From Haladaptatus paucihalophilus DX253 (GTDB taxonomy: Archaea; Halobacteriota; Halobacteria; Halobacteriales; Haladaptataceae), in contig NZ_AQXI01000001.1 of the NCBI RefSeq assembly GCF_000376445.1, positions 1,086,962 through 1,150,961 on the forward strand: a stretch of DNA of 64,000 nt, in the 5' to 3' direction. The number at the start of each line of letters is the position of its first letter. Position 1 is the stretch's first letter. Positions 6,651 to 28,724 of the stretch are shown in pieces. The translations under genes and the position numbers were made by a program. The notes below the pieces were generated by a model. The model saw nothing but the letters and a program-made list of their open reading frames with translations. It made no database searches and had not been told where the DNA came from.

Positions 6651-6940
6651 GTCCACCGATTGCGCTTCCGGGGTGAAAACTCTCACGCGCGACCCACCGC
6701 TCCCCTGACTTCGGCTTCCACCGACTTCGCCACCCCGTGGATTTATCAGCGGCGGCGAACTACGTGCAATCACCATGTCGAGTGAAACTCGCTCGGAGGA
6801 TAGAGTAAGTCGCCCCGTCGCGGCTGGTCGAGAAATTCTCGGCCGCACGTACTGCTGATTCTGCGGAGTGTTCGGACAGGTCGAACGAGTCGCCCGTTTC
6901 CGGAGAGACGACAGTCTCTGCCGAGAGCACGGACGACGGC

Positions 6941-7366
6941 GTGTCGCTGACCGTTTTCGGAGAGAAACACGACCTCTCCAGACGCGAGGCCGACCAGTTA
7001 CGCGAGGCGCTCGGTCAGGCGCTGACCGAACGCCGCGAGTTCTTCCGCACGGCCGGGGAGCACCGCGACGACGGGAGCTACGTCGTCTCGCGTCGCGGTG
7101 CCGACTCCGCCGGGCACCGAAAGGTGTTCGAACGGTTCGACGCGCTGGTGGACCTGTACGAGCGACTTCCGGGGACGTTCACGGCCGAGACGGTGGGCGA
7201 ACGGGGACTGACCGGCGGACGACGGCACATACTCGTTCATCACCTCACCGAACATCCCGACTTCGACTGCGAACTCGTCTCCCGGCAACCGCTCACGGCG
7301 CGAAAGGAGAGCGATACCGGCGACGGAAGGACGAACCCTCCCGAGGAGGACGAAGTGGAGAACTGA
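6941..7366 (+). CDS. DUF7528-like protein, N-terminus uncertain
   Basis: From a GTG at 6941 the product is 141 aa, starting VSLTVFGEKHDLSRREADQL, with a DNA-binding-like helical look and a central RYVV-like strand (GSYVVSRRGADSAGHRKVFERF). I recall related haloarchaeal proteins as DUF7528. The frame is open from 6809 to 6941 with no ATG, GTG or TTG. An ATG at 6775, about 30 bases after a TATA-like ATTTATC, gives only 28 codons in another frame. Either GTG 6941 is the start or a frameshift has split the N-terminus. Confidence 0.55.
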   Translation: MSLTVFGEKHDLSRREADQLREALGQALTERREFFRTAGEHRDDGSYVVSRRGADSAGHRKVFERFDALVDLYERLPGTFTAETVGERGLTGGRRHILVHHLTEHPDFDCELVSRQPLTARKESDTGDGRTNPPEEDEVEN

Positions 7367-8484: not shown

Positions 8485-8631
8485 ATGCGCGACGAAGAAG
8501 AGATCCGCGAGCAGTACGAGTTCCTCAAAGAACAGCTCGAAAGCGACGATATGAACCACCAAGGAATCCGAGAGATGTTTACGCACTACAAGCGGGCGTT
8601 GGGGTGGACGCTGGAAGAGGAGTACATCTAA
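8485..8631 (+). CDS. Small charged helical protein, 48 aa
   Basis: The product MRDEEEIREQYEFLKEQLES... ends ALGWTLEEEYI. It is almost all predicted helix, with heptad-like spacing (YEFLKEQLES) suggesting a short coiled coil, and it lacks cysteines. Third positions are GC-rich and the start is a clean ATG with a leader of under 90 bases after the DUF1028 gene. Length and composition match conserved haloarchaeal microproteins, but I cannot name the family. Confidence 0.6.
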   Translation: MRDEEEIREQYEFLKEQLESDDMNHQGIREMFTHYKRALGWTLEEEYI

Positions 8632-8670
8632 CTTTTTTCCATCCGGTTGACGGCAGTTATCGAAATCGTT

Positions 8671-8790
8671 ACCTTTAAGTCATTACGCCGTATTGTTGCA
8701 GTTGACGCTTCGCTTTGGAGGGCCGAAGCGTCAGCGGGGACCAATTCAGGGCGGCAAGCGGTACGCGGGGTCTTTTCGCCCCCGCGTGTT
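8671..8790 (+). ncRNA. Candidate structured RNA: promoter-like box followed by two perfect hairpins
   Basis: The 8632-8942 interval has no credible ORF. It contains CCTTTAAGTC (8670-8679), a TATA-like box. About 25 bases on comes a perfect 10-bp inverted repeat, TGACGCTTCG (8703-8712) with CGAAGCGTCA (8724-8733) around an 11-base loop. A second perfect stem, ACGCGGGG (8763-8770) with CCCCGCGT (8780-8787), follows and runs into a pyrimidine-rich stretch. The order box, start-proximal stem, second stem suggests a small RNA of about 100 bases. No C/D or H/ACA box motif is evident. This is an inference from structure only. Confidence 0.4.
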
Positions 8791-8942
8791 CCGCTTTCCT
8801 TTCGAAAACAAACTCGCAAGCGACTGCTTCGTACAGACCACAGATACCAACGACCAGTCATTTCTCTCGTTCGACCGGAAACAGAGACCGACACCGAACC
8901 GCGCGCCGCGGGCGGACGAAAACGAACGCCGAATCGTAGCGC

Positions 8943-11234
8943 TCAGACGACGGTCAGCGTTTCGGTCATATCGCCGACCGAAAGCTGATACTCGCCCGTA
9001 TCGACGACCAGTTCGCCGCGGGAGAACACGTCGCCGAGGACGGTGGCGAGCGGGAGCACCGTCGAACGAATATCGACGCGAGTCGTCTCGCCCGCGTCGA
9101 GGGAAACGCGCTCGAAGCCGACGACGACCTGCTGTGGGTAGAGCACCTCGCCGTGCTCGCGGGTGCCGTAGACCGGGACGACGGTTTCGCCCGCCCTATC
9201 GCCCGTGTTGTGCACCGAGACGGAGACGGTTAGCTCGTCCGTCGCCGCCTTTTGCGGAAGCTTCGGCGGGCGGACTTCGAGGTTGCCGTACTCGAACTCG
9301 GTGTAGCTCATGCCGTGGCCGAACGGGAACAGCGGCGTCTCGTGTGATTGCGGCGGTTCCGTATTGCCCTCCTCGTTGAACTCGTCGGGCGGGAAGTTGT
9401 TATGGAGGTTGAGCAGTTGACCGGTTCCCTTCGGCCACGTGAACGGTAATCGGCCGCTCGGATTGGCGTCGCCGAACAGGGTGGCGGCGACCGCCGGTCC
9501 CGCCGCGGTTCCGGGCAGATACGCCATCAACGACGCCGAGAGGTGGTCGAACACCGACGTGCCGCGCGGCCGACCGGCCATGATGACGCCCACCGTCGGC
9601 GTTCCCGTCTCCGCCACCGTCTCGACCAGTCGCCGTTGTGCGTCCGGGAGGGCGAGCGTGTCCGTGTCGCCCTGCTCTTCCGCGTACGGTCCCTCGCCGA
9701 GGACGGCGACGACCACATCGGCACACTCCGCCGCCGCGCGGACGTCGTCTTCGTTCGATAACTCGTGCAGTCCGGTGGGGACGTGCGTGACCGACGTGGA
9801 ACCGGGTGCCGCCTCGGAGATGCCGTCGAGAACGGTGGTCGCGGGTGGCTCGATGTCGCCGACGCCCTGCCATCCGAGCGACCAACCGCCCATCTGGTTC
9901 GCCACGCTGTCGGCGCTCGGTCCGGTGACGAGGACCGACCCCGTGTCGGAACCGAGCGGTAGCGTCCCGTCGTTGGTGAGCATGGTCATCGATTCCGTCG
10001 CCACCTCCCGTGCGAGGTCACGGCCCTCGGAGACGACGCCCTCTACTTTCTCGGGTTCGGCGTACGGGTCGTCGAACAACCCGACGTTCTCCTTGAACGC
10101 GAGGATGTTCGTCACCGCCTCGTCGATGCGCTCCATCGAGACGCTTCCCTCGTCGACGAGTTCGATGAGCCGTCGCTGGTAGCCCTCGGCGTCGTCGCCC
10201 TCGATGCTCGCTGCCGGAACCATGTACATGTCGATACCGGCGTTGATTCCCAACCGGGTCGCCTCCTTCAGGTCCTCGGCGAAGCCGTGGACCTTTATCA
10301 TCCGGAAGAAGTCGTGCCAGTCGGAGACGACCATCCCCTCGAAGCCGAGTTGGTCGCGGAGGATGTCGATGAGGAGTTCCTTCGAGGCGTGTGCGGGGAC
10401 GCCGTTCAACGATCCGCTGTTGACCATCACCGTCTCCGCTCCGGCGGTGATTCCCGCGGCGTAGGGCGGGAGGAAGGTACTCGCGAAGGTGCGATAGGGC
10501 AACAGAGCAGACGTGCGGTCGTTCCCGTTCGCCGGTTCCGAGTATCCGGCGAAGTGTTTGACGCTGGCACCGGTTCGCTTGTAGCCGTTCGTCCGCTCCT
10601 CGTATCCCCGGACCTTGGCGGCGACCAACTGGGACGCGAGGTACGGGTCCTCGCTGAATCCCTCGTAGAATCGTCCCCAGCGCGGGTCGCGCTGGAGGTC
10701 GGCGACAGGCGAGAAGTTCCAGTGCGTGCCCGTGACGCGCATCGTCCGACTCGTTATCGACGCCATCTCCTCGGCGGCGTCCGCGTCCCACGCCGCGCCG
10801 ACGCCGTGGTTGTGCGGGAAGATGGTCGCGCCCTGAATGTTGTTGTTGCCGTGAACCGAATCGATGCCGTAGACGAAGGGGACGCCGAGACGGGTGTCCT
10901 CGACCATCGCCTTCTGGCGCACGTTGCTTTCACGAGCCACTTCCTTCGGGTCGAACGACGGCAGATACATGAGCGACCCGGGCTTGTATTTGCGGAGCGC
11001 TTCCGCCGGATTCTCCGACTGAATCTCGCTGGCGGCCATCTGCGTCATCTGTCCCACCTTCTCTTCGAGCGTCATCTCGTCGACGAGGTTCGCCACCCGG
11101 TCGCTGGGCGCGGTCCGACCGGTGGCAACCGCCGATTCACCGATGTACCCCGCGAGGGCCGCTGCCAATGCGATTCCTCCGGAATGCTGCATGAAATCCC
11201 GCCGCGACGAACCATTTGTGGTATCCTTTCGCAT
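8943..11234 (-). CDS. Exported glycoside hydrolase family 3 beta-glucosidase-type enzyme
   Basis: The 763-residue product begins with a twin-arginine signal (SSRRDFMQHSG, then a hydrophobic alanine/glycine stretch to about residue 37), so it is exported folded. The GH3 N-domain shows VPFVYGIDSVHGNNN, WNFSPVADLQRDPRWGR, KHFAGYS and the nucleophile Asp305 in GMVVSDWHDFF. The GH3 C-domain (about residues 420-620) and a fibronectin-III-like end (about 680-763, GETVVPVY...) complete the usual three-domain layout. The closest functional type is a beta-glucosidase or exo-glucanase of the BglX kind; substrate is not decided by sequence. Confidence 0.92.
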   Translation of the reverse strand: MRKDTTNGSSRRDFMQHSGGIALAAALAGYIGESAVATGRTAPSDRVANLVDEMTLEEKVGQMTQMAASEIQSENPAEALRKYKPGSLMYLPSFDPKEVARESNVRQKAMVEDTRLGVPFVYGIDSVHGNNNIQGATIFPHNHGVGAAWDADAAEEMASITSRTMRVTGTHWNFSPVADLQRDPRWGRFYEGFSEDPYLASQLVAAKVRGYEERTNGYKRTGASVKHFAGYSEPANGNDRTSALLPYRTFASTFLPPYAAGITAGAETVMVNSGSLNGVPAHASKELLIDILRDQLGFEGMVVSDWHDFFRMIKVHGFAEDLKEATRLGINAGIDMYMVPAASIEGDDAEGYQRRLIELVDEGSVSMERIDEAVTNILAFKENVGLFDDPYAEPEKVEGVVSEGRDLAREVATESMTMLTNDGTLPLGSDTGSVLVTGPSADSVANQMGGWSLGWQGVGDIEPPATTVLDGISEAAPGSTSVTHVPTGLHELSNEDDVRAAAECADVVVAVLGEGPYAEEQGDTDTLALPDAQRRLVETVAETGTPTVGVIMAGRPRGTSVFDHLSASLMAYLPGTAAGPAVAATLFGDANPSGRLPFTWPKGTGQLLNLHNNFPPDEFNEEGNTEPPQSHETPLFPFGHGMSYTEFEYGNLEVRPPKLPQKAATDELTVSVSVHNTGDRAGETVVPVYGTREHGEVLYPQQVVVGFERVSLDAGETTRVDIRSTVLPLATVLGDVFSRGELVVDTGEYQLSVGDMTETLTVV

Positions 11235-26631: not shown

Positions 26632-27067
26632 TCGCCCGGAACGAGACGCTTTGCGCCTCGCTGTCGTTTTCGATGCGTCAAAAATGGACCCTCGTCCAGC
26701 CACGTCGTTCGTCGGTGGCGACGACCGCCTAAAGAGCGGCGCGAGTTGCACAGATTTATAACCGAGAAGAAAAAAGGGATAAACGCCAGTATGCGACGCT
26801 TTTCTCGTCGTGTGTTGGCAACAACTGGGACTGTGCGCTTCGTCGCGTGGGAACTGGTCGGACCCACATTGGCTTCCGGAAGCCACCACCCACCCGTCTC
26901 GCCTCTCGCCGTCTTCCACCTTCGCAAGTCAAAACCGAAACGTCGTCTCCTATCGAAACACTATCTTCTTCGAGAGCGGTCTCGTTCCGCGTCGTAACTC
27001 GAACGTCAGCGACAGCGCTCGGTTTCGAAGAGAATCGGAAAATTGGGCTTGTTTATTCGTCCTTTGT

Positions 27068-27131
27068 GAAGACGAAAACTAACCGGGATGAGTCGAGCGG
27101 TGCGAGACGATTCCCCGTAGTTTTCGTCTTC
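27068..27131. repeat. Perfect 14-bp inverted repeat, extendable by a second stem
   Basis: GAAGACGAAAACTA (27068-27081) is exactly complementary to TAGTTTTCGTCTTC (27118-27131) across 36 bases. Inside, CGGG (27084-27087) can pair with CCCG (27114-27117). This may be a structured RNA or a transcript end; no gene overlaps it. Confidence 0.5.
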
Positions 27132-27150
27132 AGCGAGAACGAAAACGAAG

Positions 27151-27181
27151 GGCAGGCGATTCGTGAAGTGAATCGCCTGCC
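27151..27181 (-). terminator. Hairpin terminator of the aldehyde dehydrogenase gene
   Basis: A perfect 12-bp stem, GGCAGGCGATTC (27151-27162) with GAATCGCCTGCC (27170-27181) and a 7-base loop, lies 8 bases beyond the stop at 27189. On the minus strand it is followed by TTCGTTTTCGTT, a U-rich tail. Confidence 0.65.
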
Positions 27182-27188
27182 GGTTCGT

Positions 27189-28724
27189 TTACTCGTCCTC
27201 GGTCTTAATGTCCGCCGAGAGGCCCTGTGCCATCTCGATGTCCTTCGAGTTGTTGAGCGTCCACGCCGTTCGCTCGGTGACCGCCTCGATGGCTTCGCGG
27301 GCGCTCGGGTAGCCGTTGCCGGACTTCTTCACGCCGCCGAACGGCAACTGGACCTCCGCGCCGATGCACGGGAGGTTGCCGTAGGCGAGGCCGATCTCCG
27401 CGTTGTCGCGGAAGTAGTTGACCTGTCGGTAGTCCTCGCTGATGATGGCTCCGGCCAGTCCGTAGGGCGTGTCGTTGTGGATTTCGACTGCCTCTTCGAT
27501 GTCACCCGAGTAACTCATCAGGGCGACGTGCGGGCCGAACACTTCCTCGTGGATGCAGCGCAGGTCGGGACTGTAGTCGATTTCGTAAACGAACGGACCG
27601 ACCCAGAATCCCTTCTCGTGGTCGTCCGGGATTTCGTCGTCGTCGAGTTCCTCGCGGTCGACGAGCACGTTCGCGCCCTCGTCCTTGGCGAGTTGGTTGT
27701 ACTTGCCGAACTTCTCGACCTGCTCCTCGTTGACCATCGGTCCCATGAAGGTGTTCTCGTCGAGCGGGTCGCCGACGGAGACTTCCTTCGCGGTTGCGAC
27801 GTAGCGCTCCTTGAACTCGTCGTAGACGTCCTCGTGGACGATGAGGCGCTCGGAGGAGACACAACGCTGGCCCGTCGTCTTGAACGAGGACATGATGGCG
27901 CTGTGAACGGCGACGTCGAGGTCCGCGTTCTCGGTGACGACGATGCCGTTCTTGCCACCCATCTCACAGGCCGCGAGTTTTCCGGGTTCGCCGCCGACTT
28001 TGCCCGCGATTTTGTGACCGACTTCCGAGGAACCGGTGAACAGCACGGTGTCCACACGCTCGTCCTCGACGATGGCGTTTCCGGCGTCGCCGAAGCCTTG
28101 GACCATGTTGAACACGCCGTCCGGGATGCCCGCGTCCTCGAACATCTCGGCGATTATCTGCCCACACCACGGCGTCTGCTCGGCCGGTTTCCAGACGACG
28201 GTGTTCCCTTCGACCAACGCGAGGGCCATGTGCCAGAACGGAATGGCGACCGGGAAGTTCCACGGGGTGATGCAACCGATGATGCCGCGCGGCTTGCGGC
28301 GCATGTAGGCGTCCTTGCTCGGAATCTCGCTCGGTACGAGGTCGCCGTGCGGGTGACGGGCGTTGCCCGCGGCCCACTCGACCATGTGCGCGGCTTCAAC
28401 GACGTCGGCCTTCCCTTCGGAAATCTCCTTCCCACATTCCTTCGTGATGACTTCGCCGAGTTCGTCCGTTCGCTCTCGGAGTTCGTGGTAGATGTCCCAG
28501 AGGTACTCCGCGCGGTTAACGTACGAAAGGTCGCGCCACTCCTCTTTCGCCTCCTCCGCGGCGTCGAGGGCGGTCTGGACGTCCTCGGGTGTCCCGCGCT
28601 GGAACTCGCCGAGCGACTCCTTCGTCGCCGGGTTGACGCTCTCGAACGTCTCTTCGCCCGCGCCGTCGTGCCACTCGCCGCCGATGTAGTGGCTGTAAAC
28701 CTGCTCGCTGGCTTGTTGACTCAT
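27189..28724 (-). CDS. NAD(P)+-dependent aldehyde dehydrogenase
   Basis: 511 aa. The catalytic nucleophile is Cys288 in FKTTGQRCVSSERL and the general base Glu254 in CEMGGKNG. Asn156 in TPWNFPVAIP and the NAD-binding segment FTGSSEVGHKI are intact. Family resemblance is to the class 1/2 and alpha-aminoadipic/piperideine-type ALDHs; the aldehyde is not determined. The upstream in-frame ATG at 28769 lacks conservation, so MSQQASEQVY at 28724 is used. A hairpin terminator follows the stop. Confidence 0.93.
   Translation of the reverse strand: MSQQASEQVYSHYIGGEWHDGAGEETFESVNPATKESLGEFQRGTPEDVQTALDAAEEAKEEWRDLSYVNRAEYLWDIYHELRERTDELGEVITKECGKEISEGKADVVEAAHMVEWAAGNARHPHGDLVPSEIPSKDAYMRRKPRGIIGCITPWNFPVAIPFWHMALALVEGNTVVWKPAEQTPWCGQIIAEMFEDAGIPDGVFNMVQGFGDAGNAIVEDERVDTVLFTGSSEVGHKIAGKVGGEPGKLAACEMGGKNGIVVTENADLDVAVHSAIMSSFKTTGQRCVSSERLIVHEDVYDEFKERYVATAKEVSVGDPLDENTFMGPMVNEEQVEKFGKYNQLAKDEGANVLVDREELDDDEIPDDHEKGFWVGPFVYEIDYSPDLRCIHEEVFGPHVALMSYSGDIEEAVEIHNDTPYGLAGAIISEDYRQVNYFRDNAEIGLAYGNLPCIGAEVQLPFGGVKKSGNGYPSAREAIEAVTERTAWTLNNSKDIEMAQGLSADIKTEDE

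Follow-up and report, generated by a model that had tools for sequence, protein, structure and literature searches.

A two-hairpin element downstream of a 48-residue gene

The window, by which we mean the whole 64-kb stretch of DNA that was analysed, contains a candidate small RNA gene on the + strand between a 48-residue gene and a GH3 gene, the latter lying on the - strand. The features of this region are as follows.

8485-8631, + strand: upstream 48-residue gene, a conserved neighbour (homologue at most 400 nt upstream on the same strand at 142 of 215 loci; no Pfam family)
8667-8679, + strand: BRE-like CGTTA and TATA-like TTTAAG, putative core promoter (peaks CGnTA and TTTAA in 193 non-redundant homologues)
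8700-8803, + strand: small RNA gene with predicted start (8700-8703) and predicted end (homologues in 90 of 99 relatives)
8703-8733, + strand: hairpin 1, 10-bp perfect stem, loop 8713-8723 (invariant in 96 of 96 BLAST copies; compensatory changes in L236 and L238)
8716-8729, + strand: TGGAGGGCCGAAGC, loop and 3' arm, recurring elsewhere, proposed target-pairing segment (matches of the 13-mer GGAGGGCCGAAGC)
8734-8755, + strand: linker GCGGGGACCAATTCAGGGCGGC, of which GCGGGGACC is invariant and the remainder mostly kept (comparison of homologues)
8756-8796, + strand: hairpin 2, structure kept, sequence not (165 distinct versions)
8794-8803, + strand: pyrimidine tract CTTTCCTTTC, possible end signal (pyrimidine-rich tails after hairpin 2 in most homologues shown)

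The sequence-only reading had proposed a small RNA here, and the parts it named were found in place. The promoter-like TTTAAG lies at 8674-8679 (+ strand). The perfect 10-bp stem is formed by 8703-8712 with 8724-8733 around an 11-nt loop (8713-8723), and the perfect 8-bp stem 30 bases further on by 8763-8770 with 8780-8787 around a 9-nt loop; beyond a small bulge, an outer helix, AAGCGG/CCGCTT (8756-8761 with 8791-8796), lengthens the second stem. The pyrimidine-rich stretch expected after it is present as CTTTCCTTTC at 8794-8803, and the RNA probably ends a little beyond 8790, at about 8803.

The two stems had been called unlikely by chance, and they were: none of 3000 dinucleotide shuffles of 8671-8790 contained both, and a stem of at least 10 bp arose in 4 of them. 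Both stems were present in 5 of the 3194 overlapping 120-nt windows of the 64 kb, and these came from two places. The other place, at about 27061-27220, has perfect stems of at least 10 bp and at least 8 bp within 120 nt. Folded as RNA, 8696-8805 gave -52.2 kcal/mol against a shuffled mean of -42.0 (z -2.75), and 1 of 200 shuffles was equally good.

Six mechanical ORFs of at least 20 aa overlap 8640-8800. No conserved reading frame is possible, because the homologues differ from each other by single bases in the loop and vary in the length of hairpin 2.

Conservation and distribution of the element

In a BLASTN search with 8660-8830, 95 of 99 relatives gave matches at E values up to 1, and strong homologues were found in 90 of the 99, representing 14 of 17 families. 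The nine genomes with no match or only matches with E above 0.2 make up the whole sample of families f2, f10 and f12. The strong homologues number 96, six genomes having two each, and every one matches CGCTTCG(1-4 bases)TGGAGGGCCGAAGCGTCAGCGGGGACC, so that 34 specified bases in hairpin 1 and its flank are common to all 96 copies. A scan of named genomes for the near-identical pattern gave at least 119 stretches, which match the pattern by selection; the hosts among the matches listed include Halorubrum, Haloferax, Halorussus, Natrialba, Natrinema, Haloarcula, Halococcus, Halarchaeum and Haloquadratum. Most genomes carry one or two copies. In the family of G058, the pattern was present in 170 of 170 genomes, with two or more copies in 148.

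The phylum was searched with a model of 17 pairs only (R1), since hairpin 2 was not aligned by MAFFT. With strict filters, 392 genomes gave 80 matches, all within the order of the window; among the 20 non-matching genomes listed (292 more were not listed), one belongs to the order and 19 lie outside it. The pattern occurred in 2 of 72,556 plasmid records; viral contigs held no exact match to it and phage records no match.

The search of Rfam with Infernal that had been suggested as a check returned no family for the RNA. With Rfam 15, the only match in the whole window was RF03001 at 6789-6841, away from the two-hairpin element, and permissive settings on 8500-8950 gave only ar35 (13.3 bits against the 45 needed, E 4.1). 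The RF03001 match, leuA-Halobacteria RNA (61 bits, + strand), precedes a DUF7528 gene (6941-7366) and not leuA.

Judging from these homologues, the element is almost certainly a stand-alone conserved non-coding RNA gene that runs through most of the sampled families of Halobacteriales.

Promoter, hairpins and gene neighbourhood in homologues

The sequence TTTA or TTAA begins 31-32 nt upstream of CGCTTCG in 202 of 214 homologues. The main upstream information peaks in the 193 non-redundant homologues were CGnTA and then TTTAA, which we take to be the haloarchaeal BRE and TATA box. Transcription would start no more than 3 nt from where hairpin 1 begins. The element has promoter elements of its own and no conserved reading frame (indels occur in the core and in hairpin 2), as expected of an intergenic sRNA.

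The frozen part consists of hairpin 1 and nine linker bases; the first bases of the loop vary in letter and number. In diverged copies the pairs of hairpin 1 were preserved, with CUUCG/CGAAG replaced by CUCCG/CGGAG and CUCUG/CAGAG; the sources are plasmid pHLAC01 of Halorubrum lacusprofundi and G144. Firm two-sided pair changes were found at columns 8-24 (two sequences) and 9-23 (one sequence) of the alignment, from which rows L100 and L111, identical to L001 and L011, were omitted. Two of the four two-sided changes come from L237, a row with a deletion, and may be due to misregister.

Hairpin 2 is conserved in another way. All of its 165 distinct sequences fold, with 7 to 23 pairs (median 18); as RNA, the + strand was more stable in 103 and the - strand in 59 of the 165. 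Stem conservation in relatives, the check named beforehand, was thus run and passed, hairpin 1 being invariant and hairpin 2 always folding.

The perfect 10-bp inverted repeat, in one or two copies in most genomes, could also be a DNA element (a protein-binding or recombination site) and not an RNA. The fixed spacing to BRE and TATA, the refolding of hairpin 2 in every version and the compensatory changes in hairpin 1 speak against a DNA element and make it extremely improbable. The comparison of homologues (their occurrence, promoter spacing and compensatory changes) supports the original proposal, a small RNA that carries two stems and an end signal and is served by a promoter of its own. 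What the alignments show is a predicted two-hairpin RNA with a frozen 5' hairpin and linker, a promoter at a fixed distance and a 3' hairpin kept in structure only.

According to a heuristic assignment at 203 loci, 107 have the next downstream gene on the opposite strand, 72 have it on the same strand, and 24 have no gene called. Since the strand of the downstream gene varies between loci, the RNA does not act as the leader of a single gene. A riboswitch or mRNA leader was likewise rejected, as no single kind of gene follows on the same strand.

Guide RNAs were also considered. C/D box guides carry a C box (RUGAUGA) and a D box (CUGA), and inspection by eye found neither string within 8700-8803. 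H/ACA guides are marked by a pseudouridylation pocket in their hairpins and by a 3' ACA; the stem of hairpin 1 is perfect, and there is no ACA between hairpin 2 and the pyrimidine tract. Both classes were rejected. A pseudoknot between UUGG of the loop and CCAA of the linker was rejected by eye, because copies with CCTAC or TCTGG break the pairing.

Diverged copies of the RNA (L235, L236 on pHLAC01, L237, L238, L172 and L239) occur on a plasmid and elsewhere. Beside those in L235, L236, L237 and L172 there is, by sequence likeness, a divergently oriented gene for a phrog_35116-like protein, complete or in part; the pHLAC01 copies have two TRAM-domain genes nearby, and the L239 copy is followed by a transposase-like gene (identified by eye). 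A fixed module of plasmid-type copy and phrog_35116 protein was rejected on the basis of six other plasmids carrying that protein, on which TTGGAGGGCC, with one mismatch allowed, was absent within 700 nt of it.

Recurrence of the loop and 3' arm outside the RNA

The exact 13-mer GGAGGGCCGAAGC had 114 matches in 40 genomes, compared to 6 for the reversed control. Thirty-eight of these belong to the RNA itself, which 37 genomes carry, one of them twice, and the 76 extra matches fall at 63 places: 64 matches in the family of the window (24 genomes), 7 in G029 and 5 in 15 other genomes. The neighbouring 13-mer CAGCGGGGACCAA was matched 38 times across these 40 genomes, all but twice within the RNA. 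Outside the RNA, the 22-mer TGGAGGGCCGAAGCGTCAGCGG with up to 3 mismatches matched at 26 sites in the 99 genomes, compared to 8 for the control; some of these 26 are to be expected by chance. In 26 genomes of other families, TGGAGGGCCGAAG with at most one mismatch gave 165 matches, of which about 39 fall in the RNA, while the control gave 111; this is no clear excess. Loose 13-mer matches within the 64-kb window were at the chance level (38 against 36.8 expected). At the recurrence sites, Rfam gave no match in 16 loci, and no tRNA was found in 12 loci. Tandem arrays of the motif or of close variants lie between genes in L278, L289, L316, L336 and L364, with units spaced by 18 to 54 bp.

The gene context was classified with a codon-usage gene caller at 59 loci, comprising 57 of the 63 places of the exact 13-mer and two from the 22-mer search; L288 was submitted without having the exact motif. 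At 49 of the 59 loci, the first gene downstream is antisense, with its 3' end towards the motif, in 47 of them at a distance of no more than 275 nt. These 49 loci comprise 31 convergent pairs, 17 tandem pairs and one without another gene called. At the remaining 10 loci the motif lies between sense genes (3), between divergent genes (2) or inside a gene (3), or could not be resolved (2). Stop codons within 6 nt of the motif belong to antisense genes at 9 loci (five of them one 97-aa protein family) and to sense genes at none. The strand bias in tandem pairs is 17 to 3 as called and about 9 to 3 without the HVO_1552 group; the latter is the informative comparison, because 8 of the 17 belong to that group, in which the convergent gene was missed by the caller.

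Among the adjoining genes, the HVO_1552-like group accounts for 22 loci, the 97-aa family for 5, and the Pfam families DUF6293 and DUF7344 for 4 and 2, respectively. Inspection by eye added an MMPL-like transporter (3 loci) and single genes such as those for FtsZ and cytochrome P450. Twenty further loci, selected from the one-mismatch matches listed in other families, give a less distinct picture. The 3' end of an antisense gene adjoins the site in 7 of these (two more than 300 nt off), 6 lie between sense genes, 4 inside genes and 3 elsewhere. Five of the six between sense genes are one site conserved in five Haloferax genomes (CGCTTCGGCCCTCCACC; L482 and L484-L487); it follows one sense gene at 175-226 nt and precedes another at about 355-361 nt. 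In three f15 genomes, a common site follows the stop codon of a polysaccharide-deacetylase-like gene (by eye) at 8-16 nt, and in L360 the site lies 17 nt beyond the stop of such a gene.

A housekeeping RNA-protein particle, with a protein reading hairpin 1 and the linker and with the GGAGGGCCGAAGC copies as its same-sense sites or as unrelated sequences, would explain why 30-odd bases are invariant even in families with few extra sites, and the Haloferax site stands in sense orientation between genes. Lsm proteins bind UUU-type RNA stretches, and the UUU found in the hairpin 2 loop of 138 of the 165 versions could suit such a protein. The particle would not account for a motif that is mostly antisense to a gene with a nearby stop at the 59 classified loci, nor for the lack of recurrence of the equally frozen neighbouring 13-mer, and we regard it as somewhat unlikely.

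The complement near HVO_1552-like genes

The HVO_1552-like gene encodes a membrane-anchored HTH regulator; the copy in the same genome lies near G000:C1:1680887, outside the window. Loci of this gene were chosen by protein search (69 + 26 genomes) and not by motif. Of 70 loci submitted, 66 could be scored; L401, L403 and the second paralogues L438-L445 are not included. We counted a complement score of at least 11 within 250 nt of the stop codon. At syntenic loci, in which a convergent SDTH phosphoesterase-like gene follows, the complement was present in 33 of 38, compared to 1 for the reversed control and 0 for the same-sense control. At non-syntenic loci it was present in 2 of 28, and the same-sense control also gave 2.

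Syntenic loci with the complement amount to 26 of 27 in the family of the window and 7 of 11 outside it. The latter come from f4, f7, f9, f13 and f14, the f14 match being to a different 11-nt segment. The syntenic misses are L376 (with a run of N), L399, L400, L408 and L428. The site is also missing in four genomes that lack the RNA (L393, L406, L410 and L411), to which little weight can be given because three of them have other neighbours there. Ahead of the site, in the first 100 nt after the stop codon, the loci L365-L392 contain a block like CTAAAACGnGTTTTTGAGCTTACGGGA...TATTTGAT, which could be the promoter of another RNA or a structure of the 3' UTR.

Cofolded with the RNA of the window, the site of the same genome gave a net -20.0 kcal/mol, below all of 400 random 80-mers (lowest -18.6). 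Four of six sites from other genomes also beat all 400 random pieces; the sites of L394 and L377 were beaten by 7 and 26 of the 400, respectively.

These loci also bear on an independent 3'-end motif (a terminator, processing or repeat element) of one family, whose match to the RNA would reflect common origin or convergence. The excess of sites is mainly confined to the family of the window, tandem arrays with units of 18 to 54 bp exist, and many unrelated genes adjoin sites, all in keeping with such a motif. However, the complement is kept at HVO_1552-like loci of five other families, and the match covers exactly the loop and 3' arm. Such a motif is quite unlikely in our estimation.

A possible mode of action

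The RNA gene may encode a trans-acting antisense regulator of 3' sites, a proposal that we consider evenly balanced. Base pairing with these sites as its way of working is a tentative reading, slightly less secure, its standing being lowered by the weak one-mismatch result in the 26 genomes of other families. Against pairing, the extra sites lie mainly in the family of the window, whereas the RNA is frozen throughout the order, and the conserved Haloferax site lies between two sense genes. In families with the frozen core but few sites, the RNA may have a single gene, a protein or both as its partner.

If pairing occurs, GCCCUCC(A) in a target RNA would first bind the loop (UGGAGGGC) as its toehold. 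The target would then free the 3' arm (CGAAGCGUC) by displacing the 5' arm, with pairing possibly extending into GCGGGG. At some sites, a part of the 5' arm is followed by the loop complement (UGACGCUUCGGCCCUCC, for example in L291-L294 and L404), so that such a target could displace the 5' arm. Target pairing, as proposed, would keep the loop and 3' arm frozen, and the 5' arm would be frozen to match the 3' arm. Of hairpin 2, folding alone would be required, as a terminator or stabiliser. The best-supported target would be the 3' region of the HVO_1552-like gene, the strand of which is not proven because the site lies between convergent genes. Control of mRNA stability would, in our view, be the most likely effect of such pairing.

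GGAGG in the loop could also mimic a Shine-Dalgarno sequence and bind the 3' end of 16S rRNA, the RNA then acting on ribosomes. Only five pairs would form with the anti-Shine-Dalgarno sequence, the flanking loop bases do not fit, and the arms and linker are left unexplained. Ribosome association of other sRNAs of H. volcanii, described in the parts of PMC6104027 and PMC12482152 used here, is in its favour; overall we consider a role of this kind very unlikely.

In its fullest form, the antisense proposal is of an old haloarchaeal RNA that invades many 3' UTRs from its loop toehold, at single or tandem sites after stop codons, with plasmid copies as decoys or rival regulators; this full version is doubtful. 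If the 3' UTR sites are genuine, they would show by what rule an archaeal sRNA picks out its mRNAs, a largely open matter.

Comparison with known haloarchaeal RNAs

In a literature search we found no paper tied to the two-hairpin RNA. It may be listed without a name in published sRNA tables, for instance among the 22 conserved haloarchaeal itsRNAs for which no function is given in the part of PMC7002113 used here. By sequence, it looks like an old regulator outside Rfam. The leuA-Halobacteria RNA (RF03001) is also a structured haloarchaeal RNA; its Rfam type is cis-regulatory, and it does not match the two-hairpin RNA. The comparisons below follow those parts of the cited papers that were used.

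IG1.7/htsf242 of H. volcanii is a small structured intergenic RNA, the deletion of which reportedly costs fitness in low salt (PMC6104027). It lies 605 kb from htsf_359 (PMC3956466), and its identity with the two-hairpin RNA was considered because the two copies in G127 are similarly spaced. This identity is somewhat disfavoured: the spacing differs in other Haloferax genomes, and the predicted product of IG1.7/htsf242 ends in five cytidines (PMC6104027), whereas the Haloferax copies of the two-hairpin RNA compared here have no such run.

sRNA132 of Haloferax volcanii is an intergenic RNA of two stems and a single-stranded linker; it has a promoter of its own, and a 3' UTR target has been proposed for it (PMC6560208). 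Its layout and proposed target resemble those of the two-hairpin RNA, but sRNA132 is reported only in Haloferax in the part of that paper used here, whereas the two-hairpin RNA occurs in 14 of the 17 families sampled. Compared by description, the two are unlikely to be identical.

HVO_2908s and H3.2 are intergenic sRNAs common to vesicles of H. volcanii and Halobacterium salinarum (PMC10927574); as described, they are common to two haloarchaeal families, like the two-hairpin RNA. Three sRNAs of the H. volcanii deletion collection, H225.2R, htsf_359 and hts10, have counterparts in 12 to 19 further haloarchaeal genomes (PMC3956466). By description they are widely conserved in the same way, and one of them may be the Haloferax copy of the two-hairpin RNA. 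In that collection, 22 of 27 sRNAs are confined to the species (PMC3956466). The two-hairpin RNA, with its frozen core in 14 of 17 sampled families, is the opposite of these, and its role is accessible to deletion in laboratory haloarchaea.
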